Of a DNA stretch of 39,810 nucleotides, positions 14,891 through 22,859 are shown piece by piece. How positions within the stretch are numbered: position 1 is the first letter of the stretch; each line of letters opens with the position of its first letter. A program made the translations under genes and the position numbers. The DNA is from Planctomyces sp. SH-PL62 (GTDB lineage Bacteria; Planctomycetota; Planctomycetia; Planctomycetales; Planctomycetaceae). The notes under the pieces are model-generated. The model was not told the origin of the DNA. It saw only the letters and a program-made list of their open reading frames with translations, and ran no database searches. The stretch lies in the NCBI GenBank assembly GCA_945893075.1, contig CAMDDX010000023.1, positions 1 through 39,810 on the forward strand, written 5' to 3'.

Positions 14891-16336
14891 ATGGACTTGC
14901 GCGGCGAAGGTTCCATTGTGTTAGTCTCGTGCTACGAGTTGGGGCACCAACCGCTCGGTGTCGCCATGCCGGTGGGATTCTTGCGACGCGCGGGTTACTT
15001 GCCGGTGGCGATCGACATCGCGGTCGAGAAGTTTGACGCGGAAATCGCGGCGAGGGCGCAGTTCGTCGGGATTTCCGTCCCCATGCACACGGCGATGCGG
15101 CTAGGCGTGCGGGTCATCGAGCGGTTGCGTGAGATCAATCCGCACTGCCATATCTGCTGCTACGGTCTCTATGCCGCGTTGAACTCCGAGTACCTGCTGG
15201 CCCACGGCGCGGACTCGTGCATCGGCGGCGAGTACGAAGGGCCGCTGGTCGCGCTGGTCGAGTCGCTGGAATCCGAGACCGATGCTCAAGTCGCGGGCGT
15301 GATCCGGCGTCAGCAACCGGCGGGACCGAATCTCGTGCGGCTGTCGTTTGCGATTCCCGAACGAGACGCGCTGCCGACTCTGGATAAGTACGCCCAGTTA
15401 GAACACAACGGCCAGCGTCGCACGGCGGGTTACGTTGAAGCCAGCCGCGGTTGTTTGCATTTGTGTACTCACTGCCCCATCCCGCCGGTGTACGAAGGCC
15501 GGTTCTTCACCGTGCCGCCGGACGTCGTGCTGGAAGACATCCGCCGCCAAGTGCAGGCGGGAGCCACTCACATCACGTTTGGCGATCCGGACTTTTTGAA
15601 CGGCCCCAAGCATTCGCTGCGTGTGGTTCGCGCGATGCACGCCGAGTTTCCAACGCTCACCTTCGACTTCACGGCCAAGGTCGAACACCTTTTGCATCGC
15701 GGCGAGGACTTACCGGAATTCGCCGCCGCCGGTTGCTTGTTCATCATCTCGGCCGTGGAATCGCTCAGCGAAAAAGTGCTGCGGATTTTCGACAAGCAAC
15801 ATACGCGGGAAGACGTGACCGCGGCGCTGACGATCGTGCGCGATGCGGGCATCGCGCTGCGACCGACATGGGTTGTCTTCACACCGTGGACGACGCGCGA
15901 AGACTACTGCGAAGTGCTCGACTTCATTGAAGCCAACGGCCTGATCGATCACGTTGATCCGGTGCAGTACGCGATCCGCCTGCTGATTCCACCCGGCTCT
16001 TGGCTGGCCGAACATCCGGAGACTCTGCCGCATCGCGGGCCACTGGACGAGGCCGCGTTCAGCTACCGCTGGACGCATCCCGATCCGCGCATGGACCAGT
16101 TGCAGAAGGGGATCGCGCGGCTGGTGGAAGAGGCCACTCGCGCGGGCGAGGACACCGCGACGACGTTTTACCGCGTGTCGGATTTGGCTCACGAGCGACA
16201 AGCTCCGGTCATCGTTCGCTCGCTGCCGTTGGATCGCCGGAAGGCTCCGAGGCTGACCGAATCTTGGTTCTGCTGAGCGGAGCCAACCGAGGGTCAGTTG
16301 GACCCTCTCAGCAACAGCACGACGAACATGTTTTAA
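14891..16336 (+). CDS. CUAEP-tail radical SAM selenoprotein (Sec at 16274-16276)
   Basis: A 481-residue radical SAM protein read through a UGA. The start at 14891 follows GGAGG by 7 nt; 14888 is an alternative ATG. Residues 10-130 resemble a B12-binding-like domain (VSCYELGHQPLGVAMPVGFL; GGEYEGPL) but lack a clear DxHxxG. The radical SAM core carries RGCLHLCTHC, i.e. CX3CX2C for the 4Fe-4S cluster, followed by THITFGDPDFLNGPKHS. At the apparent end, WFC-TGA continues in frame as GCG GAG CCA ACC, giving Cys461-Sec462-Ala-Glu-Pro-Thr, then 16 further codons to a TAA at 16334. CUAEP/CCAEP is, as I recall, the defining tail of a known radical SAM (seleno)protein family. A hairpin 12 nt after the UGA supports decoding. 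It opens an operon with DUF169 and metal-handling selenoproteins; its reaction is unknown. Confidence 0.88.
16289..16307 (+). promoter_or_regulatory. Predicted SECIS hairpin (radical SAM gene)
   Basis: A perfect 7-bp stem GAGGGTC/GACCCTC with loop AGTTG. The loop begins 19 nt after the UGA at 16274-16276, inside the recoded tail. A G lies within the first two loop bases, as usual for bacterial SECIS elements that bind SelB. Confidence 0.75.
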
Positions 16337-16338
16337 GT

Positions 16339-16504
16339 CCTTGGAGTGCTGCGGCTCGACGCAGCCCTCCATTCAATTGAAATAGCGACTCTCAAAGTCC
16401 TCAAAACGTCAATACGAAGTCGGCTGAACAACCGCGATTGTTCTGACAATCAACCTCTTCGTTCCAACTGAATGGAGGGCTGCGTCGAGCCGCAGCACTC
16501 CAGG
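16339..16504. repeat. Palindromic repeat family A, copy 1
   Basis: About 166 bp with 35-bp terminal inverted repeats (left arm starts CCTTGGAGTGCTGCGGCTCG; the right arm mirrors it, ending GCAGCACTCCAGG). It begins 2 nt after the TAA of the radical SAM selenoprotein and ends within the ribosome binding site of the DUF169 gene. Two further copies occur at 21388 and 22691. It has no coding capacity and looks like a MITE or long REP element. Confidence 0.85.
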
Positions 16505-16513
16505 AGTTTGCTC

Positions 16514-17200
16514 ATGAGCACGGCCACACGGTTGATTGAGTTATTAGCGTTGCGGTCACAGCCGGTCGCGATCAAGTTTCAGGATGCCGCACCGGCAGGC
16601 GTGCCAAGGATCGAGGCGGCCGCGCTGGCCGGTTGCACCTATTGGAAAGTCGCTGCCGAGGGACGCACCTTTTACACGACAGCGTCAGACCATTACGGCT
16701 GTCCGATCGGTTCGCACACGCACGGTATCGACTTGCCGGAAAAAACGGCGAAGGAGTTGGAGGGGCTGGTCGGGACAATGGTGCAACTCGAATACATCAA
16801 CATGGCGGAAGTCCCCGACATTCCGCGGCGCGGGGAGACGTTCGGCGTCGCCATCTATGCACCGCTGACCGCAGCCGCGTTCGCTCCTGACGCCGTCCTG
16901 GTGTCCGGCAACGCGAAGCAGATGATGTTGCTGGCAGAAGCGGCGCACGCGGCGGGTCTCGATTGCGACTCGTCGATGGTTGGCCGTCCCACCTGCGCGG
17001 CGATCCCAGCAGTGATGCAATCGGGACGCACCGCCACGAACCTGGGTTGCATTGGCAATCGCGTTTACACCGAGCTGCCGGACGACGAACTGTACTTTGC
17101 GATCGCCGGCTTGCAGCTCGAACCGATCGTCGAAAAACTGGTGACTATCGCGCACGCCAATGACGAGCTGGAAAAGTTCCACCGTAGTCGTGTTGCCTAA
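16514..17200 (+). CDS. DUF169 family protein
   Basis: A 228-residue protein starting at ATG 16514, with AGGAG 7 nt upstream (the AGG is contributed by the end of the repeat). A longer frame from 16472 would run through the repeat and is rejected. It matches the DUF169 pattern: QPVAIKFQDAAPAGVPRIE, then FYTTASDHYGCPIGSHTHG, GVAIYAPL, MMLLAEAAHAAG, GRPTCAAIPAVMQSGR and LGCIGNRVYTELPDDELYFA. Conserved Cys residues in YGCPIG, PTCAAIP and LGCIGNR suggest metal or cofactor binding. The function is unknown; members are often found with metal, corrinoid or radical-SAM genes. It is the second gene of the selenoprotein operon. No signal peptide is seen, so it is probably cytoplasmic. Confidence 0.85.
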   Translation: MSTATRLIELLALRSQPVAIKFQDAAPAGVPRIEAAALAGCTYWKVAAEGRTFYTTASDHYGCPIGSHTHGIDLPEKTAKELEGLVGTMVQLEYINMAEVPDIPRRGETFGVAIYAPLTAAAFAPDAVLVSGNAKQMMLLAEAAHAAGLDCDSSMVGRPTCAAIPAVMQSGRTATNLGCIGNRVYTELPDDELYFAIAGLQLEPIVEKLVTIAHANDELEKFHRSRVA

Positions 17201-17223
17201 ACTCAAACAAGGAGACCCAAACT

Positions 17224-17844
17224 ATGTCCGTTGATCGTTGGCTCGCAGCTCTGGCGTGTTCGCTGCTGATGGCATCCACCGCCAGTGCCCAAGTGCAAAG
17301 TGGCGTGATGACGGTGACCGGGGCCGAAATGCACTGATGAGCCGGTGTGGCGCGAGATGCCACAGCACGTCTGTATGACGTGGACGCGGATACGATTTCA
17401 TTCAAACGATTCAACAAGACCGGCAAGTACGACATTGGGACAGTGACGTTTCGAGCCAAGCCTGGAAAACTGATCGACCTCGACAAGCTGCACGAGAGCG
17501 TTTGGGCGACGCGACTTTCCGGCGGAACCAGCAGTGGACTGGTGAGCCTCGAAGTAACCGTGACGGGAATGATTGTTGTTGGCGAAAAGGAGACGACTCT
17601 CAAAGTCACCGGCGCGGAGCCTGAGTTCGTGCTGGCGCAAAACCCAGAGGCCGATTTCAAAAACGCTTTCGACGAATTGAAAGCCGCCTTGGAACGGGGC
17701 GAGAAAGTCACCAGCGTCAGCGGGCGACTCGATGGTTGGTCCGGCCGGTGGCCCGAAATGTTGAAGAAGCTCCCGGCCAAACCCCGGCGGATTCTGGTGA
17801 CTCGTTTTGAAGTGATGCAGAACTCGGAAACGAAAACTCCATGA
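17224..17844 (+). CDS. Exported protein with vicinal selenocysteines (Sec38-Sec39)
   Basis: A 206-residue reading frame interrupted by two adjacent TGA codons (17335-17340). The ATG has AAGGAG 9 nt upstream. Codons 1-22 form a signal peptide (LAALACSLLMASTASA), so the N-terminal piece is meaningful. Without recoding it would be a 37-residue peptide, and the remaining 167 codons would lack a start and ribosome binding site. The junction reads VTGAEMH-Sec-Sec-AGVARDATARLY, resembling an HMA-like 'GM.C..CA..V' metal site. The mature protein is periplasmic, beta-rich, with a C-terminal region (ERGEKVTSVSGRLDGWSGRW). Hairpins at 17346 and 17366 could serve as SECIS. Its TGA stop overlaps the next ATG (4-nt overlap). 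I do not recognise the full-length family. Metal or selenol chemistry is inferred from the motif and neighbours. Confidence 0.78.
17366..17382 (+). promoter_or_regulatory. Predicted SECIS hairpin (Sec-Sec gene)
   Basis: A perfect 6-bp stem CACGTC/GACGTG with loop TGTAT. The loop begins 31 nt after the second UGA and 34 nt after the first. A second hairpin (stem TGTGGC/GCCACA, loop GCGAGAT, 17346-17364) lies closer, at 11 nt from the second UGA. Either or both could act. Confidence 0.6.
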
Positions 17845-18173
17845 AACCGATCAACGAACAGAAACGAACGACTGGGAATCGAGCCGTCAGCGCGTTGAGT
17901 GCGCTGTTCGGCACGGCGGCGATCGTCCCCAACTGAACTGCCGCAGCGATTCTTTCCTTGCTCGGGTTAGCAGGGAGCACAGCCGCAACGGTCGTCAGTT
18001 GGTTGTCGCCAGTCTTCATCGGGCTGACGGCGGTGCTCTTGGGCCGCGCGCACTATGTGCTTTACGTTCTGAAACGCGGCAACCGTACTTCGACCGTCAT
18101 CACCTGGCTGACGACGGTTTTGGTCATCGGCTTTTGGACATGGAAATGGATGAAGTCAACCGGGATCTGTTAG
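17841..18173 (+). CDS. MerT-like membrane selenoprotein (Sec32)
   Basis: A 110-residue protein with one in-frame TGA (17934-17936). The ATG overlaps the previous stop (ATGA). Three membrane helices are predicted at about residues 17-45, 50-68 and 86-103. The pattern VPN-Sec-TAAAILSLLGLAG, then SPVFIGLTAVLLGRAHYVLY, parallels the first two helices of MerT mercuric transporters ('CC..PL.L..LG..G' then 'YRP.F...T...LG.AFY'). Sec takes the place of a helix-1 Cys that passes metal ions across the membrane. Without recoding there would be a 31-codon stub, and the remainder would start inside a helix. A strong SECIS-like hairpin follows. Its last codons overlap the start of the decarboxylase gene by about 34 nt, indicating translational coupling. 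Confidence 0.78.
17955..17976 (+). promoter_or_regulatory. Predicted SECIS hairpin (MerT-like gene)
   Basis: An 8-bp stem (17955-17962 with 17969-17976, one G-U pair) and loop CGGGTT beginning 26 nt after the UGA. The CGGG loop start is shared with both hairpins of the MerT-MerP fusion gene. Confidence 0.72.
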
Positions 18174-19375
18174 AGATCGTTCGCCGCTTCGGCACGCCGA
18201 CCTACGCCTTCGACGTGCGGCGCTTACGGGCGCAGGTCGAGAAGCTGCGTACTCATTTGCCGGCCGCCATCGAGATTCTGTATTCGCTCAAGGCGAACGC
18301 TTCGCTTGGCATTTGTGATGTGCTGAGGGACTGCGGAATCGGTGCCGACGTCGCTTCTGCGGGTGAGTTGGCCACGGCCGTGGAAGCCGGCTTCCCGTCT
18401 CAGCGGATCTTCGTGGCTGGACCGTTCAAACTTCCGGAAACACTCGCGCAGCTTCGCGACTTGCCCCCAGCAGTCATCTCGGTGGATTCGCCGAGCGAAT
18501 TGCAAATGCTGGCCGAACAGCGTTTGCCCAACCCGATCGTGTTGCGGTTGCGCCCCGACTTCGGTTCGCAGGCGGTCGTCGCGGCGGGACACGAGTCGCG
18601 GTTTGGCTTTGTCGGCGAAGATGTCTCGTCGTGCCGCAAACTGGTGAACTCTCAAGCGGTCAACGTCATCGGCTTCCATGTTTTTTCCGGCTCGCAATAT
18701 CTGAACGCCGAAGGGATCGTCGCACATTTGCGGGGCGCGTTGGCGATCTCTCGACGGGCGGCCGACGATTTGGGGATCGCGCCCGAGCTGCTGAATCTCG
18801 GCGGTGGCTTCGGCATCCCTTACGCATCGACGGCCGGCGAGTTGGATCTGCGAATCATTGGCGAGGAACTGGCGATGATTGCCGAGCAACTGCCGACCAC
18901 GCGGATCGTGTTGGAACTGGGCCGGTATTTGGTGGCTCAGGCCGGTTGGTATCTGACGTCGGTGCTCGGCCATCAGACCTTTCAAGGCCGCGCGGCCGTG
19001 GTGGTCGATGGCGGGACTCACCAGCGCGCCGATATGTGCGGTCTTTGTCTGCGGACGAAAGCCAACCCGCCTCTGGCCTTGGACGCACCGCCGTCTCCGC
19101 TCTCGCCCACCGACGTGTTGGGTTGCCTGAGCCTGCCGGCCGACGTGCTGACTGAGTCCAGTCTGTTGCCCCGTCTTGAACCGGGCAACGTGTTAGCGTT
19201 CGCCAACGCCGGTGCGTATGGCCTGTGGTCTTCGCCAGCCATGTTTCATGGCAGCCCTCTGCCGGCCGAGGTCGCGTTTGACGGATCAGGAATTCAATTG
19301 ATGCGCGAACGGCGATCGGCAAGAAGTATTCTGGACGATCAACGACATTTGAATGTGCGAGGTCATGATGCGTGA
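18140..19375 (+). CDS. Type III PLP-dependent decarboxylase (LysA/ornithine decarboxylase-like)
   Basis: About 411 residues from ATG 18140 (18146 also possible); the start is inside the end of the MerT-like gene. It shows the alanine-racemase-fold decarboxylase pattern: GTPTYAFDVRRLRAQVEKL, then the PLP lysine in YSLKANASLGICDVL, DVASAGELATAVEAGF, GFHVFSGSQ, LNLGGGFGIPY, the phosphate-binding-type LELGRYLVAQAGWYL and the C-terminal GNVLAFANAGAYGLWSSP. It is closer to the diverse decarboxylases of biosynthetic clusters than to housekeeping lysA, since the usual 'CESGD' reads LGCLSLPADVL here. The amino-acid substrate is unknown. Its place inside the selenoprotein operon suggests a small-molecule or chelator step, which is inference. 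Its stop overlaps the next gene. Confidence 0.85.
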   Translation: MEMDEVNRDLLEIVRRFGTPTYAFDVRRLRAQVEKLRTHLPAAIEILYSLKANASLGICDVLRDCGIGADVASAGELATAVEAGFPSQRIFVAGPFKLPETLAQLRDLPPAVISVDSPSELQMLAEQRLPNPIVLRLRPDFGSQAVVAAGHESRFGFVGEDVSSCRKLVNSQAVNVIGFHVFSGSQYLNAEGIVAHLRGALAISRRAADDLGIAPELLNLGGGFGIPYASTAGELDLRIIGEELAMIAEQLPTTRIVLELGRYLVAQAGWYLTSVLGHQTFQGRAAVVVDGGTHQRADMCGLCLRTKANPPLALDAPPSPLSPTDVLGCLSLPADVLTESSLLPRLEPGNVLAFANAGAYGLWSSPAMFHGSPLPAEVAFDGSGIQLMRERRSARSILDDQRHLNVRGHDA

Positions 19376-20273
19376 ATTTTTCAGACGGATGATGTGTGTC
19401 GTTGTGCCCCTGATCGTGACGGTGACAGGCTGGTCCCGTTCGGCGCATGCGGAGGAACCGGCCGCCGCGCCCCCCAAGGTTGAAGTCCTGACGAATTCGA
19501 TCGGCATGAAGCTCGCTCGCATCCCGGCGGGGAAGTTCGTGAGGGGATCGCCGCGCACTGAGCCGGAACGAGTCCGCGGAGAATCGCAGCACGACGTGAC
19601 CATCACTCAGCCGTATCACCTGGGTGTGTACGAAGTGACTCAAGCCGAGTTCACCAAGATCATGGGTGGCCAGATTCAACCGACGTTCGGCAACAACAAC
19701 GGCGGCGGCCCGGACCATCCGATGGAGAACATGGAGTGGACTCAGGCCGCTGAGTTTTGCAAGAAGCTGTCGGCGCTGCCGGAAGAAATCAGCGCCGGCC
19801 GCAAGTATCGCCTGCCGACGGAAGCTCAATGGGAATTCGCCTGCCGCGCTGGAACGGTCACGGCGTTTCATGGCGGTGCGTCGCTTTCATCGCTCAAGGC
19901 CAACTGCAACGGAACGACACCCTACGGTGATGCGGAGCCGGGGCCCTATTTGCGCCGCACGGCCAAGGTCGGTTCGTATCCGGCCAACGCCTTCGGTCTG
20001 TACGACATGCACGGCAATGTCTCGGAGTGGTGCGCCGACTGGTACGATCCGGCAGCCTATGAAGAGAATCCTCAGACAGACCCGCGCGGCCCGCCGGTCG
20101 GAACGTTTTCGGACGACTTCGGCAATTTTTATCTGGTGGTCCGCGGTGGCTCGTGGCTCGACGATGCGCGAGCGTGCCGCTCGGCGTACCGGCAGAAGGC
20201 GATGCACAAAAACCGTTATCCGTGGATCGGCTTTCGTGTCGCGTGCGACGTCGACGCGAAACAGGCCAAGTAG
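19365..20273 (+). CDS. FGE-sulfatase (formylglycine-generating enzyme-like) domain protein
   Basis: About 302 residues. ATG 19365 or 19368 is chosen because GAGG lies just upstream; 19353 is a longer alternative. A signal peptide (VVVPLIVTVTGWSRSAHA) precedes the domain. Family motifs: SIGMKLARIPAGKFVRGSP, YHLGVYEVTQAEFTKIMGG, PMENMEWTQAAEFCKKLS, YRLPTEAQWEFACRAGT, NAFGLYDMHGNVSEWCADWY, VVRGGSWLDDARACRSAYR and GFRVAC. The paired active-site cysteines of true FGE are not evident, as in many bacterial relatives that are binding or other oxidative proteins. It is exported. It starts within the end of the decarboxylase gene and precedes two metal-binding selenoproteins by 27 nt, so it belongs to the operon. 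Relatives include EgtB/SenA-type C-S/C-Se bond-forming enzymes, but no DinB domain is present here. Confidence 0.85.
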   Translation: MMREFFRRMMCVVVPLIVTVTGWSRSAHAEEPAAAPPKVEVLTNSIGMKLARIPAGKFVRGSPRTEPERVRGESQHDVTITQPYHLGVYEVTQAEFTKIMGGQIQPTFGNNNGGGPDHPMENMEWTQAAEFCKKLSALPEEISAGRKYRLPTEAQWEFACRAGTVTAFHGGASLSSLKANCNGTTPYGDAEPGPYLRRTAKVGSYPANAFGLYDMHGNVSEWCADWYDPAAYEENPQTDPRGPPVGTFSDDFGNFYLVVRGGSWLDDARACRSAYRQKAMHKNRYPWIGFRVACDVDAKQAK

Positions 20274-20300
20274 ACCAGCCTGACCTCTGGAGCGAACAAC

Positions 20301-20639
20301 GTGAACCTCGTGACGACACGACTGATTGGTTTGGCCATATTCGTGGCGGCGTTGTTGTCAGGCTGCGGCCGTTCGTCCGCACCTGAGTCGTCGACGGCGG
20401 CCGGCACCGAAACCGTAACGTTCCATGTCACCGACATGGGTAAGCGATTGGCCTTGATGTGAGAAGATTGACCCAATCGGGTGAAAGAGGCCCTGGTAGG
20501 GCTTCCCGGCGTTGAGTTGGTCCGCGACGAATGGGACCATGACCTGCTGACGGTCACCTTCAACCGACAGCAGATGACGGTGGAAAAGCTGCACGCGAGA
20601 ATCGTCCAGGAAGGCTTTGAAGCGGACGTGAAGAAGTAG
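20301..20639 (+). CDS. HMA-domain (MerP-like) lipoprotein with UxxU (Sec54, Sec57)
   Basis: A 112-residue frame from GTG 20301 (GGAG 8 nt upstream) containing TGA at 20460-20462 and 20469-20471. The N-terminus has a lipoprotein signal, AALLSGC, with Cys22 as lipid site. The rest is one heavy-metal-associated domain: TVTFHVTDMG, then LALM-Sec-ED-Sec-PNRVKEALVGLPGV, then LLTVTFNRQQM and ARIVQEGFEADV. In HMA/MerP domains the metal ligands are MxCxxC; here both Cys codons are UGA. Flanking sequence fits the family on both sides in the same frame, which argues against random nonsense mutations. A near-perfect hairpin follows. It is probably anchored on the periplasmic side and passes a soft metal to the MerT-MerP fusion encoded 29 nt downstream. 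Confidence 0.82.
20487..20505 (+). promoter_or_regulatory. Predicted SECIS hairpin (UxxU lipoprotein gene)
   Basis: An 8-bp stem GAGGCCCT/AGGGCTTC (one G-U pair) with loop GGT. The loop begins 23 nt after the second UGA and 32 nt after the first. A single element may serve both codons. Confidence 0.72.
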
Positions 20640-20668
20640 GCGAATCCCACGAACCCAGGAGTCAGTCC

Positions 20669-21385
20669 ATGTCGAGCGACTTAGAACGTCAGTCATTGCC
20701 CGTCGCCAATTGCTGAACGACGACGGCGAAGACGTTGCCGGGCGCAACGACGACACTCTCGAATCCTCCTTCCAATCGCGGCGAGTTGATCGCCAAGATC
20801 GGCACGATCGTCTCGGCGCTGATGGCATCGAGCTGTTGCTGGTTGCCAGTGCTGTTGTTGGCGGTCGGCGTCTCCGGCGCGGGGATCGCCTCGGCTTTGG
20901 AAGCCTATCGGCCGATCTTCATGGTCGTCACGTTCTGCTTCCTGGGGATGGCGTTCTACTTCACCTACCGGCCTCGGCGAGTTGCCAGCACGGCGGCCGA
21001 TTGTTGCGCACCGTCCACCGAGACCATCGGCAAGCGGCGGTTCAACATGATGGCGTTCAACAAAGTCATGCTGTGGACCGTCACGCTGATGGCCGTTGTG
21101 TTTCTCTTCTTTCCGCAGGCCGTGACCGGATTGATCGGCACCGGCAGCGACAAGATCACTGCGGACATGACCCGCACCGAGGTCAAGATCATCGGCATGA
21201 CGTGTTATGGCTGAGCGGCCAAGGCCGCTGCGGCCCTGCATCAAGCACCGGGTGTGCTTGCCGTCCAAGTCGATTATGAAAAGCGTCTCGCCACCATCGG
21301 CACGCAGCGCGACAAAGTTGTGCCGCGCGACGAACTGCTCAAGTCGCTCAAGTCGATCGGGTATAGCGGCGAAGTCGTCGAATAG
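20669..21385 (+). CDS. MerT-MerP fusion selenoprotein (Sec16, Sec182)
   Basis: A 238-residue frame from ATG 20669 (AGGAG with a 7-nt spacer) with TGA at 20714-20716 and 21212-21214, ending at TAG 21383. After ANC-Sec-TTT near the N-terminus come MerT membrane helices. The first carries the metal pair in MASSCCWLPVLLLAVGVSG, then YRPIFMVVTFCFLGMAFYFT, a loop with DCC, and MLWTVTLMAVVFLFFPQ. The C-terminal 65 residues are a MerP/HMA domain: EVKIIGMTCYG-Sec-AAKAAAALHQAPGV and SLKSIGYSGEVV. The metal motif GMTCxxC therefore has Sec for its second Cys. The family imports Hg(II) or related soft metals. An ordinary call would end at 21214 and start at 20735, losing the metal site. It is last in the operon; a palindromic repeat starts 3 nt downstream. 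Confidence 0.85.
20733..20749 (+). promoter_or_regulatory. Predicted SECIS hairpin 1 (MerT-MerP gene)
   Basis: A perfect 6-bp stem CGTTGC/GCAACG with loop CGGGC. The loop begins 22 nt after the UGA at 20714-20716. Confidence 0.68.
21242..21260 (+). promoter_or_regulatory. Predicted SECIS hairpin 2 (MerT-MerP gene)
   Basis: A perfect 7-bp stem CAAGCAC/GTGCTTG with loop CGGGT. The loop begins 34 nt after the UGA at 21212-21214. Confidence 0.72.
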
Positions 21386-21387
21386 AG

Positions 21388-21557
21388 CCCCTGGAGTGCT
21401 GCGGCTCGACGCAGCCCTCCATTCATTTGGAATGACGACGTTGATTGCCAAGAAGGGGGCGCTGTACTCAGCGGGATGTCGTGACGTCGGTTTAGAGACG
21501 ATGAGCGTCGCTATTTCAATCGAATGGAGGGCGGTGTCGGGCCACCGCACTCCAGGG
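21388..21557. repeat. Palindromic repeat family A, copy 2 (inverted)
   Basis: About 170 bp. The left arm CCCTGGAGTGCTGCGGCTCG is intact; the right arm has diverged (GGCGGTGTCGGGCCACCGCA in place of the usual mirror). Its interior matches copy 3 in reverse orientation. It fills the gap between the convergent MerT-MerP and TlpA-like genes, starting 3 nt after one stop and ending 6 nt from the other, so it could act as a bidirectional terminator. Confidence 0.85.
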
Positions 21558-21562
21558 CGCGG

Positions 21563-22675
21563 CTACTTTCCGACGGGGCGTTCCGCGAGCAGCGCGTCAA
21601 CGGCTTTGTCGAGATCCTCGCCCTTCAAGTCCTTGAACCGGATGACTCCACGAGCATCGAGGACATAGATCGCAGGACGCTCGGTGACTTCCCATCTCGT
21701 CTGAATCGGGCCGTCCGGGCTGCCCTAATCCCACCAGCTTCGCCAGGTGATCTGTTCCTTTTCGAGCGTCTTCTTCAACTCCTCCCGATCCTCGTCGCTG
21801 TTGATGCCGAGGAGGACGAATCGTTTCTCTTGATCTTGCAGACGTTTCACGAGCGACCGCTCGTGCGGGTACATCTCCCGGCAGGGGCCTCACCAGTGGC
21901 CCCAGAAGCTGAGCACCACGACCTTGCCGCGATGCTCGCTGAGCTTGAACGTCTTGCCGAAGATGTCCTCGCCAACGATCTCCGGAGCGACCCGGCCGAT
22001 CGACAAGTGGCGGATGCGGAACAGAGCCTTCTCGGCAATCTCGCCCAACTTGCCGTCAGTAGTCGACACGTCGGCAAACGACTTGAGCATCAGCTCGTAG
22101 TGTTGCTCGCGTTTCTTTTCCAACTGCTCGCGGTCGAGTGATTTCAAGTGCTTGCCATATTCCGCGCCGTAGAACTGCATCACGCGGTCGGCCGACTCCG
22201 GTTCCTTTTTCAATTGGTCAACGACGCTCGCCTGTTGGTCGAGCAGATAAGCCAACTGTCGACACGCCTGGCCGCGCACCTTTTCGTTGCGACTCTTTTC
22301 CAGTGCCGTTCGCAGCAACTTCTCGGCCGCAACAGCCGGAGTCCGTGCGACGTGCCGACAAGCCGCACCGAATTGTTCGTTGTTGAGATGATCGCGCTCC
22401 AGCAATCCCAAGGCCCGCGTTGCTTCGGGGCGGAGACGGAGTTTGGTCAGCACCCAGACCAATGAGTCGATCGCAACGGGATCGCTGGGGTGTTGCTCAG
22501 CCAGTTCGAGAAATCGCCCGGCCAATTCTGGAGCCTTCGCTCCCTCTTCGTACTCGTCGAGCAACTTCTGATACCGAGCCGCCGGCGCAGTCGTTTCTTT
22601 TTGCGATGCGTTCGCCGGGACGACGATTGAAAGAATCAGCATCAAGCTCAAGACACAAATGACTTTCGATGACAT
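21563..22675 (-). CDS. TlpA-like thioredoxin selenoprotein (WUGPC) with an in-frame TAG
   Basis: A 370-codon frame from ATG 22675 (AGGA with a 6-nt spacer) with a signal peptide (CVLSLMLILSIVVPANA). Residues about 30-215 are helical, repeat-like (LERDHLNNEQFGAACRHVAR). A TlpA/AhpC-type thioredoxin domain follows: RVAPEIVGEDIFGKTFKLSE, then VVLSFWGHW-Sec-GPCREMYPHERSLVKRL, so the first active-site Cys codon is TGA (21892-21890, codon 262). The frame continues with family sequence (VLLGINSDEDREELKKTL; ITWRSWWD) but meets a TAG at 21727-21725 (codon 317). After that, PIQTRWEVTERPAIYVLDA and DALLAERP complete the domain to a TAG at 21565. The TAG may be a nonsense mutation (one change from GAG), an error, or rarely readthrough. 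Probably a periplasmic thiol/selenol redox protein; the copy may be inactive. Confidence 0.72.
21848..21865 (-). promoter_or_regulatory. Predicted SECIS hairpin (TlpA-like gene)
   Basis: On the minus strand, a perfect 7-bp stem CACGAGC/GCTCGTG with loop GGTC. The loop begins 31 nt after the UGA at 21892-21890. A GGUC loop resembles the SelB-binding loop of E. coli fdhF. Confidence 0.72.
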
Positions 22676-22690
22676 GTTCTGTCCTTTCTG

Positions 22691-22857
22691 CCCTGGAGTG
22701 CTGCGGCTCGACGCAGCCCTCCATTCGATTGAAATAGCGATGTTCAAAGTCCCCCAAACGTTGCGACAACATCCCATTGAGCGCACGCCGCCGTCTTGGC
22801 AATCAACGTCGTCATTCCAAATGAATGGAGGGCTGCGTCGAGCCGCAGCACTCCAGG
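22691..22857. repeat. Palindromic repeat family A, copy 3
   Basis: About 167 bp with near-perfect 36-bp terminal inverted repeats starting CCCTGGAGTGCTGCGGCTCG. Its internal sequence matches copy 2 in inverse orientation, including TTGGCAATCAACGTCGTCAT. It lies 15 nt upstream of the TlpA-like gene start and ends 3 nt before the peroxidase stop. With copy 2 it brackets the TlpA-like gene in opposite orientations. Confidence 0.88.
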
Positions 22858-22859
22858 GA

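Follow-up and report, generated by a model that had tools for sequence, protein, structure and literature searches.

A nine-gene cluster with nine in-frame UGA codons

The window, that is, the whole stretch of DNA analysed here, comprises 39,810 nucleotides from Planctomyces sp. SH-PL62 and contains an operon-like cluster of nine genes, eight on the forward strand and one, encoding a TlpA-type protein, on the reverse strand. Six of them carry in-frame UGA codons, nine in all, within 14891-22675 and at the coordinates originally given. The genes are listed with the residues that we assign to UGA as selenocysteine (Sec, U) and with the basis of each assignment.

14891..16336, forward strand: radical SAM selenoprotein with a CUAEP tail, 481 aa, Sec462 (UGA 16274-16276); translation, NF040546, PF04055, PF02310
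16514..17200, forward strand: DUF169 protein (PF02596); Pfam, relatives
17224..17844, forward strand: UU protein, adjacent Sec38-Sec39 (UGA UGA 17335-17340), apparent signal peptide; translation, relatives
17841..18173, forward strand: MerT-like membrane protein, Sec32 (UGA 17934-17936) in helix 1; NF033560 below its cut-off, profile match to the MerT part
18140..19375, forward strand: PLP-dependent decarboxylase; Pfam, closest solved structure BtrK
19368..20273, forward strand: FGE/PvdO-like protein, apparent signal peptide; Pfam, structure match
20301..20639, forward strand: lipoprotein-like HMA (MerP-like) protein, UxxU with Sec54 and Sec57 (UGA 20460-20462 and 20469-20471); Pfam, alignment
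20669..21385, forward strand: MerTP-type fusion, Sec16 (UGA 20714-20716, CU tail) and Sec182 (UGA 21212-21214, GMTCYGU); Pfam, homologues
21563..22675, reverse strand: TlpA/ResA-type thioredoxin-fold protein, Sec262 (UGA 21890-21892, WUGPC); NCBIfam, Pfam, alignment

The gene for the UU protein ends at an ordinary UGA that overlaps the next ATG. The DUF169 gene has a further upstream ATG at 16472, which lies inside a repeat and is not common to the relatives. The best match of the decarboxylase among solved structures is the glutamyl-carrier decarboxylase BtrK (E 2.3e-58, against 3.2e-35 for the next), and that of the FGE-like protein is PvdO (E 1.6e-20). No carrier-protein or pyoverdine gene was seen in the cluster.

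We examined 392 genomes taken from a larger group, including that of the organism itself. Conservation of the gene order in other planctomycetes had been proposed as a check; of the five closest relatives, three carry the full nine-gene set in this order. The other two, L029 and L031, have a partial set and keep the Mer part without the radical SAM gene in the available sequence. Their contigs go on without homology, for 1.4 kb before and 3.3 kb after the cluster in L029 and for 9.8 kb before it in L031, where part of the TlpA gene is also missing; these versions are therefore rearranged, truncated or misassembled.

The UGA codons are almost certainly read as selenocysteine

Every relative covering a given UGA retains it: 3/3 for the radical SAM, UU (both codons) and MerT-like genes (L028, L030 and L032), 4/4 for both HMA codons and for TlpA, and 5/5 for both MerTP codons. 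Among the relatives covering them, purifying selection was evident on both sides of the UGAs, with pN/pS 3' of the last UGA between 0.00 and 0.28 in the six genes (the radical SAM value is based on 19 codons). Divergence at 4-fold sites from -5 to +15 codons around the UGAs was about half that elsewhere (82/694 versus 1117/4375 pairwise differences) and was lower in each of the six genes taken singly. For both comparisons L032 was omitted from MerTP, owing to a length difference, and the partial L031 from TlpA.

A SECIS-type hairpin had been proposed after each TGA. We used a simple score of our own, in which a Watson-Crick pair counts 1 and a GU pair 0.25, the loop has 3-8 nt with a G in its first two bases, and the loop starts 16-37 nt after the UGA. 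All nine Sec sites score at least 6. Among all TGA triplets of the window, counted on either strand and with the nine sites included, 79 of 1272 reach this value. The hairpins, one of them common to both HMA codons, are as follows.

16289..16307, forward strand: hairpin of radical SAM Sec462; score, covariation in distant loci
17366..17382, forward strand: hairpin of the UU protein; score
17954..17977, forward strand: hairpin of MerT-like Sec32; score
20487..20505, forward strand: hairpin common to HMA Sec54 and Sec57; score
20733..20749, forward strand: hairpin of MerTP Sec16; score
21242..21260, forward strand: hairpin of MerTP Sec182; score
21848..21865, reverse strand: hairpin of TlpA Sec262; score

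The summed score of these seven independent hairpins is 47.75, a value reached by none of 1000 synonymous recodings (mean 25.2, sd 3.1, maximum 38.75). The hairpin of the CUAEP gene shows covariation across distant loci. Rfam at the gathering threshold found no match in the window. At four loci, the UGA that ends the UU gene as a normal stop reaches 2.0-2.25, and because UGA thus acts as a hairpin-less stop in the same operon, we rejected a general reassignment of the codon.

The genome encodes selA (524 bits) and selB (342 bits), both over their cut-offs. The tRNA-Sec sought along with them did not appear in the organism's own assembly, which is 93% complete, by Rfam (150 of 1531 candidates scored), by one pattern search or by blastn with a relative's gene. 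In the genomes of five relatives, it was found over the Rfam cut-off in four and by ARAGORN, with a UCA anticodon, in three.

Could these frames instead be decaying genes or read errors, with UGA an ordinary stop? The missing tRNA-Sec would fit, as would the truncated versions in two of the five relatives and an in-frame TAG at codon 317 of the organism's own TlpA frame, where four relatives have a sense codon. Against this, the UGAs are present in all covering relatives with low pN/pS downstream of them, the hairpins are in place, with covariation in that of the CUAEP gene, and selA and selB are present, which makes decay or error hardly credible. We are thus almost certain that the UGAs in all six genes are read as Sec, as originally predicted. 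Two-sided third-position divergence was also used to look for more Sec sites, but antisense frames swamped the signal and it added nothing.

The UU protein

Comparisons of the UU protein with Pfam, NCBIfam, PDB and plasmids gave chance-level matches or none, and we found no homologue beyond close relatives. Its predicted structure has an HMA-like order of strands and helices, which is not trustworthy at a mean pLDDT of 37. Compared as a profile, it matches HMA with a probability of 3.9% (P 0.0034, against 0.1 for the reversed control), a resemblance that is suggestive at most. In the accessible literature, a wording search for vicinal or adjacent Sec residues found no paper that combined two of its six terms. 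The cluster thus adds a protein without a Pfam or NCBIfam family that carries two adjacent Sec residues.

Mer-type, HMA and TlpA selenoproteins

Each Sec had been predicted to stand where a redox or metal-binding Cys is expected. The MerTP search listed 41 matches besides the cluster's own, and in the 29 assigned to loci and aligned, the U182 column holds Cys in 28 (one gap) and the U16 column in 22 (three gaps, four other residues). The Secs of the HMA, TlpA and MerT-like proteins align with metal-binding or redox Cys when compared with distant folds. In five of the six proteins Sec falls at a metal-binding, redox or vicinal Cys of relatives or related folds. Alternation with Cys was seen directly at both MerTP sites; for the CUAEP tail, no Cys form was found in the 10 loci compared.

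The MerT and HMA domains resemble those of mer operons (MerT, MerP, MerTP) in their metal-binding Cys, here partly replaced by Sec, but the cluster proteins fall below the equivalog cut-offs. The MerT-like protein scores 30 bits against NF033560 (cut-off 130), gives a profile match to the MerT part and has no match on plasmids; the MerTP-type fusion scores 103 bits (cut-off 180) and the MerP match 30 bits (cut-off 92.55). MerA was over its cut-off in none of the six cluster genomes (best 379.9 bits versus 454.45), and a scan of the nine proteins of the cluster and ten from its flanks revealed no mer regulator or reductase. We therefore ruled out filing the cluster as mer, with MerTP, MerT, MerP and MerA all below cut-offs. 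Models of HMA-type and MerT-type selenoproteins likewise match below their cut-offs, namely the UxxU metal-binding selenoprotein NF041115 (28.6 bits, cut-off 95) and the MerT/CopZ fusion selenoprotein NF045683 (60.9 bits, cut-off 375). Selenoproteins of mercuric transport already appear in lists of 2008 and 2026, and the parts of these papers available to us do not link them to a CUAEP enzyme (PMC2398784, PMC13188914).

The CUAEP radical SAM enzyme and its kinship to ArsL

The radical SAM selenoprotein combines a B12-binding-like domain (PF02310) with a radical SAM domain (PF04055). At 704 bits against NF040546 (cut-off 500), it is a member of the CUAEP/CCAEP family and shares its C-terminal CU-AEP motif. 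The motif reads WFCUAEP, and the UGA is present in 10/10 loci compared; the T. roseum record is annotated to end at WFC, while its DNA continues UGA-AEP. The model itself names no function, we found no characterised CUAEP-family enzyme, and the other CUAEP loci examined have different neighbours. Mer modules were absent near five distant CUAEP loci of the phylum, so the coupling of CUAEP to Mer appears confined to one narrow group. At three of five other phylum loci (L033, L034, L036), the CUAEP gene has ATP-grasp amino-acid ligases in its neighbourhood, with none among the neighbours scanned or annotated at L037 and in T. roseum; the present cluster has a BtrK-like decarboxylase. ATP-grasp genes are also found close to the RCCLKC gene at two of three plasmid loci examined.

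The next-best model after NF040546 is ArsL (NF040542), the radical SAM enzyme of the arsQML arsinothricin operon. The enzymes share the same architecture, with 32-38% identity over 83-85%, and the vicinal Cys-Cys near the ArsL C-terminus has a counterpart in the Cys-Sec of the cluster enzyme. This comparison was made with three RCCLKC proteins and needs a long gap, as the CUAEP proteins carry ~60 residues more where the tails align. We nevertheless rejected filing the cluster enzyme as ArsL: it scores 336 bits against a cut-off of 450, has Sec for Cys, and carries FCUAEP in place of the RCCLKC tail. ArsL was over its cut-off in none of 382 phylum genomes. Unlike arsQML, the cluster has no adjacent ArsM or ArsQ and carries Mer-type import instead; scanning its nine proteins and ten flanking ones likewise showed no ArsR, ArsM or Acr3-like gene. 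ArsL is predicted to use SAM as the donor of a 3-amino-3-carboxypropyl (ACP) group that it transfers to As(III); arsinothricin is described as a glutamate analogue (PMC8552651).

Comparison with the SAO operon

The SAO (Sec-assisted organometallic) operon and selenoprotein neighbourhoods are reportedly treated in papers by Haft and co-workers. SAO, too, comprises six clustered selenoprotein genes, with a presumed role in organometal handling (PMC13188914). Its families differ from ours: no Sao model (SaoB/C/L/P/T/X) was among the NCBIfam matches of the nine proteins at E 0.01, which rules out filing the cluster as SAO and agrees with the earlier view that this is not the Sao set. The cluster is therefore neither SAO, classical mer nor arsQML. 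No literature naming CUAEP, CCAEP or RCCLKC, or joining 'selenoprotein' with 'arsinothricin', was found in a search that fell short of most subscription papers and of two Haft papers.

Proposed function

The cluster had been interpreted as a metal import and processing system built around Mer-like proteins. The selenoproteins, the SECIS-type hairpins, selA and selB, the gene order in three of five relatives and the lack of Sao matches all agree with that interpretation, and the Mer-type modules are real. Its Mer-centred view needs refinement, however, since the six selenoprotein genes include that of the radical SAM enzyme, a CUAEP family member with ArsL as its next-best model; the likely output therefore shifts from transport towards a carbon-element bond.

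We consider it quite possible, if short of probable, that Sec-armed Mer-type import feeds an ArsL-like enzyme whose product, an organometal(loid) amino acid, then undergoes decarboxylation; this estimate allows for L029 and L031, which keep the Mer part without the radical SAM gene. The import would concern a soft element such as arsenic, mercury or a comparable metal or metalloid, which would become part of a small organic compound. In the periplasm, selenols would be kept reduced by the exported TlpA-type selenoprotein. The UxxU lipoprotein, perhaps with the Sec-Sec protein, would capture the element for transfer to the two carriers, MerT-like and MerTP, and the Sec sites of these would deliver it into the cytosol. 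There the C-terminal Cys-Sec of the CUAEP enzyme could bind the element, much as the terminal Cys-Cys of ArsL may bind arsenite. Transfer of the ACP group from SAM would then yield an amino acid that resembles glutamate and contains an element-carbon bond. Decarboxylation by the BtrK-like enzyme would give an amine, and final maturation outside the cytoplasm may be due to the exported FGE/PvdO-like protein. In favour of this pathway we count the family match with ArsL as next model, the Cys-Sec pair set against Cys-Cys, the ATP-grasp genes near related enzymes, the decarboxylase closest to BtrK and the metal modules. Points against it are the lack of a characterised CUAEP enzyme, the ArsL score below cut-off, the missing RCCLKC tail and the long gap between the tails, the lack of ArsR, ArsM and Acr3-like genes among the proteins scanned, and distant CUAEP loci without Mer modules or, at L037 and in T. 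roseum, without an ATP-grasp neighbour among those scanned or annotated.

The Mer-type parts could also serve soft-metal (Hg-like) uptake and detoxification, with Sec for tighter binding and the radical SAM enzyme modifying a protein or cofactor without forming a carbon-element bond. The MerTP, HMA and MerT-like proteins are what such a system would contain, and MerA-type homologues of up to 380 bits occur below threshold in the cluster genomes. We find this rather doubtful, given the scores below the mer cut-offs, the lack of an above-threshold MerA in the six genomes and the lack of a mer regulator or reductase among the proteins scanned; it also leaves the decarboxylase and the ArsL kinship without explanation. 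PvdO, named dihydropyoverdine dehydrogenase in NCBIfam, matures the metallophore pyoverdine, and ACP transfer is used in some metallophores. These points, together with the structural match of the FGE-like protein to PvdO, would fit a metallophore pathway: the radical SAM enzyme and decarboxylase would make an organic ligand that is matured by the exported FGE/PvdO-like protein, and the metal brought by this ligand would enter through the Sec carriers. Such a pathway is unlikely, as the nine proteins include no ligand-backbone synthase or ligand receptor and the nearest characterised radical SAM family acts on arsenic. Very unlikely is a seleno-metabolite cluster in which selenium is the element and the FGE-fold protein acts like SenA or EgtB: the genome does handle selenium (selA, selB), but the match to SenA is far below its cut-off (34 bits versus 420), the FGE-like protein looks exported, and Mer-type carriers are not known for selenium.

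The preferred bond-forming pathway can be taken further, in a form that we regard as possible but speculative. The cluster may be a dedicated biosynthetic operon whose building block is a toxic soft element, perhaps mercury, which Mer-type selenoproteins would hand to an ACP-transferring radical SAM selenoenzyme; the organometallic amino acid formed would be decarboxylated and exported, and CUAEP would represent a second, selenium-dependent branch of carbon-element bond formation of the ArsL type. The cluster joins metal-handling selenoproteins with putative ArsL-type carbon-element enzymes, a link that we did not find in the literature reached, the Haft papers aside. The purpose of its dense Sec use becomes testable. 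If the proposed function is true, it would assign a function to the annotated but uncharacterised CUAEP selenoprotein family and predict that organometal(loid) natural products form a family of their own, new to science.

Organization of the cluster

The cluster comprises eight consecutive genes on the + strand, followed by a TlpA-type gene on the - strand. Signal peptides and the lipobox of its proteins were assigned by eye.

Genes of the cluster (window positions)
14891-21385, + strand, eight genes in a row:
gene 1, radical SAM enzyme with a CUAEP tail
gene 2, DUF169
gene 3, UU protein with adjacent Sec-Sec, secreted-looking
gene 4, MerT-like membrane protein
gene 5, PLP decarboxylase
gene 6, FGE/PvdO-like protein, exported-looking
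gene 7, HMA protein with UxxU, lipoprotein-like
gene 8, MerTP-type fusion
start at 22675, - strand, TlpA-type protein with WUGPC

The ten flanking proteins that we scanned are ordinary, several of them of planctomycete type, and include no metal-transport or ars/mer genes. The TlpA frame carries an in-frame TAG (window 21725-21727, - strand), either a true lesion or an error in the sequence. Intact copies exist, since four relatives have sense at this codon. At window 16339-16502, 21386-21558 and 22690-22858 the cluster genes are separated by a palindromic repeat about 165-170 bp long. Its 31-base end occurs five times in the window (none expected from shuffles), copies sit at different gene junctions in three relatives' loci (L028, L030, L031), and it resembles a small mobile (MITE-like) element.

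Evidence for selenocysteine at the nine UGAs

The original prediction was that these in-frame UGAs define six selenoproteins, each UGA being followed by a hairpin at SECIS distance. We found short-loop hairpins at all nine, with the loop starting 19-34 nt downstream of the UGA. On a scoring rule devised in this analysis, all nine sites scored at least 6, as against 79 of the 1272 TGA triplets in the window (the nine sites counted in). The summed score, 47.75 for the seven independent hairpins, was reached by none of 1000 synonymous recodings (mean 25.2, sd 3.1), and the UU gene's terminating UGA, an ordinary stop, scored 2.0-2.25. Four-fold sites differed in 82 of 694 comparisons near the UGAs versus 1117 of 4375 elsewhere. 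The UGAs are retained in every relative that covers them, the frames are open on both sides, and pN/pS downstream of the last UGA is 0.00-0.28. Together with selA and selB, both of which were found in the genome, these data uphold the prediction, and the cluster UGAs very probably encode selenocysteine.

Across ten CUAEP loci (nine distinct sequences), the hairpin stem is kept via double changes at two pairs. The proportion of paired cells (88.9%), the cells altered on both sides (9) and the covariation (0.325 versus 0.144 when shuffled) were each reached by 0/500 shuffles; pairs changed on both sides and further pair types showed no excess (reached by 291/500 and 497/500 shuffles, respectively). 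The hairpin of one phylum locus, L033, scores best with a 4-nt loop and is thus out of register with the others.

Absence of selB and tRNA-Sec had been named as grounds for rejection. selB is present; tRNA-Sec was not found in the assembly itself (484 contigs, 92.9% complete), most likely through assembly loss, we infer. For three relatives' genomes (L028, L031 and L032) ARAGORN called a tRNA-Sec with a UCA anticodon, and that of L030 has an Rfam match above cut-off (55 bits) without an ARAGORN match there.

The TGAs were also proposed to fall at redox or metal-binding Cys columns. Among 29 aligned MerTP homologues, 28 carry Cys in the U182 column (one gap) and 22 in the U16 column (three gaps, four other residues). 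Both HMA Secs align to the MerP CxxC, and the TlpA Sec aligns to the first Cys of WCGPC in the thioredoxin-family structure 2yp6. A profile match, though weak (15 bits, E 8e-4), places MerT-like U32 at the second Cys of the helix-1 pair in MerTP, and the Cys-Sec of the radical SAM enzyme aligns to the Cys-Cys of RCCLKC proteins across a long gap. For the UU protein, neither the 391 other phylum-sample genomes nor plasmids yielded a homologue, so the evidence for its two Sec sites is the hairpin plus their retention in three relatives.

Most phylum MerTP homologues (L055-L083) share an NPxGSCCL-like N-terminal motif that includes a vicinal Cys pair before the first helix, with Cys at the second place in 22 of 29. 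One homologue from another planctomycete family (L079 1501-2193, - strand) has two in-frame TGAs, of which one takes the place of the HMA motif's first Cys (GMTU), and is perhaps a further Sec-containing MerTP.

Conservation in relatives

The MerTP query retrieved five relatives (83-93% identity). The gene order is kept in three of them: L028, L030 and L032 have all nine genes, with TlpA in L030 about 9 kb apart from the rest. The assemblies known to carry the complete cluster number four, all of metagenome type and from a single narrow group. In L029 the decarboxylase, FGE, HMA and MerTP genes are present, together with just the end of the MerT-like gene; L031 retains MerTP, part of HMA and part of TlpA. 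In these two loci (L029 1446-5150, L031 9838-12590) homology ends within genes (HMA, TlpA, MerT-like) and the contigs continue without it, reflecting rearrangement, loss or misassembly.

The CUAEP enzyme and a possible product

The radical SAM enzyme matches NF040546 at 704 bits (cut-off 500); the next-best model is ArsL (NF040542; 336 bits, below its cut-off of 450). ArsL, in the available text of PMC8552651, belongs to arsQML, the cluster that makes arsinothricin, a glutamate analogue; its predicted reaction is transfer of the ACP group from SAM to As(III).

CUAEP enzymes occur in six of the 392 phylum-sample genomes (own included), with one TGA each, and on a Thermomicrobium roseum plasmid, also with UGA. 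The T. roseum gene is annotated as far as WFC; the DNA runs on through UGA and AEP, with a hairpin (L038 16390-16431), and the record is probably a truncated selenoprotein annotation. Neighbours were scanned in four of the other five phylum loci (all but the short contig L035), and in three of these, L033, L034 and L036, an ATP-grasp amino-acid ligase lies near the gene. Two of three RCCLKC-tail plasmid loci also have an ATP-grasp gene. L033 also has DUF169 (60% identity), L033 and L036 have NfuA-like genes, and L037 has an FGE-fold and an N-acetyltransferase-like gene; the available stretches of these five loci lack UU, MerT-like, HMA and MerTP genes. The nearest solved structure to the cluster's decarboxylase is BtrK (E 2.3e-58), far ahead of diaminopimelate decarboxylases (3.2e-35). 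ArsL kinship, the ATP-grasp neighbours and the BtrK-like decarboxylase lead us to propose that the product would be a glutamate-like amino acid, tailored by differing amino-acid enzymes in different hosts.

The analysis shows the parts, the Sec sites and the gene block; we infer the direction of flow, bond chemistry, product and element. The ArsL half suggests arsenic and the Mer half mercury, and we prefer neither. No MerA above cut-off (454) was present in the six cluster genomes, which have sub-threshold homologues of up to 380 bits.

Relation to known selenoproteins

Mercuric-transport and UxxU metal-binding selenoproteins (PMC2398784, PMC13188914) and a six-selenoprotein SAO operon (PMC13188914) are listed in the accessible portions of earlier work, planctomycete selenoproteins are reported in that of PMC4807772, and the CUAEP family already exists as an NCBIfam model. 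We found no use of the family name in the literature searched. 'CUAEP' and 'NF040546' are absent from the available main text of the review PMC13188914, a term search of the accessible deep-Sep text (PMC12013277) gave neither CUAEP nor mercury, and the available main text of PMC4807772 has neither 'mercur' nor 'radical SAM'. The components are therefore partly known and their combination is new to the sources searched. We rate the cluster as belonging with the multi-selenoprotein systems for organometal chemistry, an already known kind.
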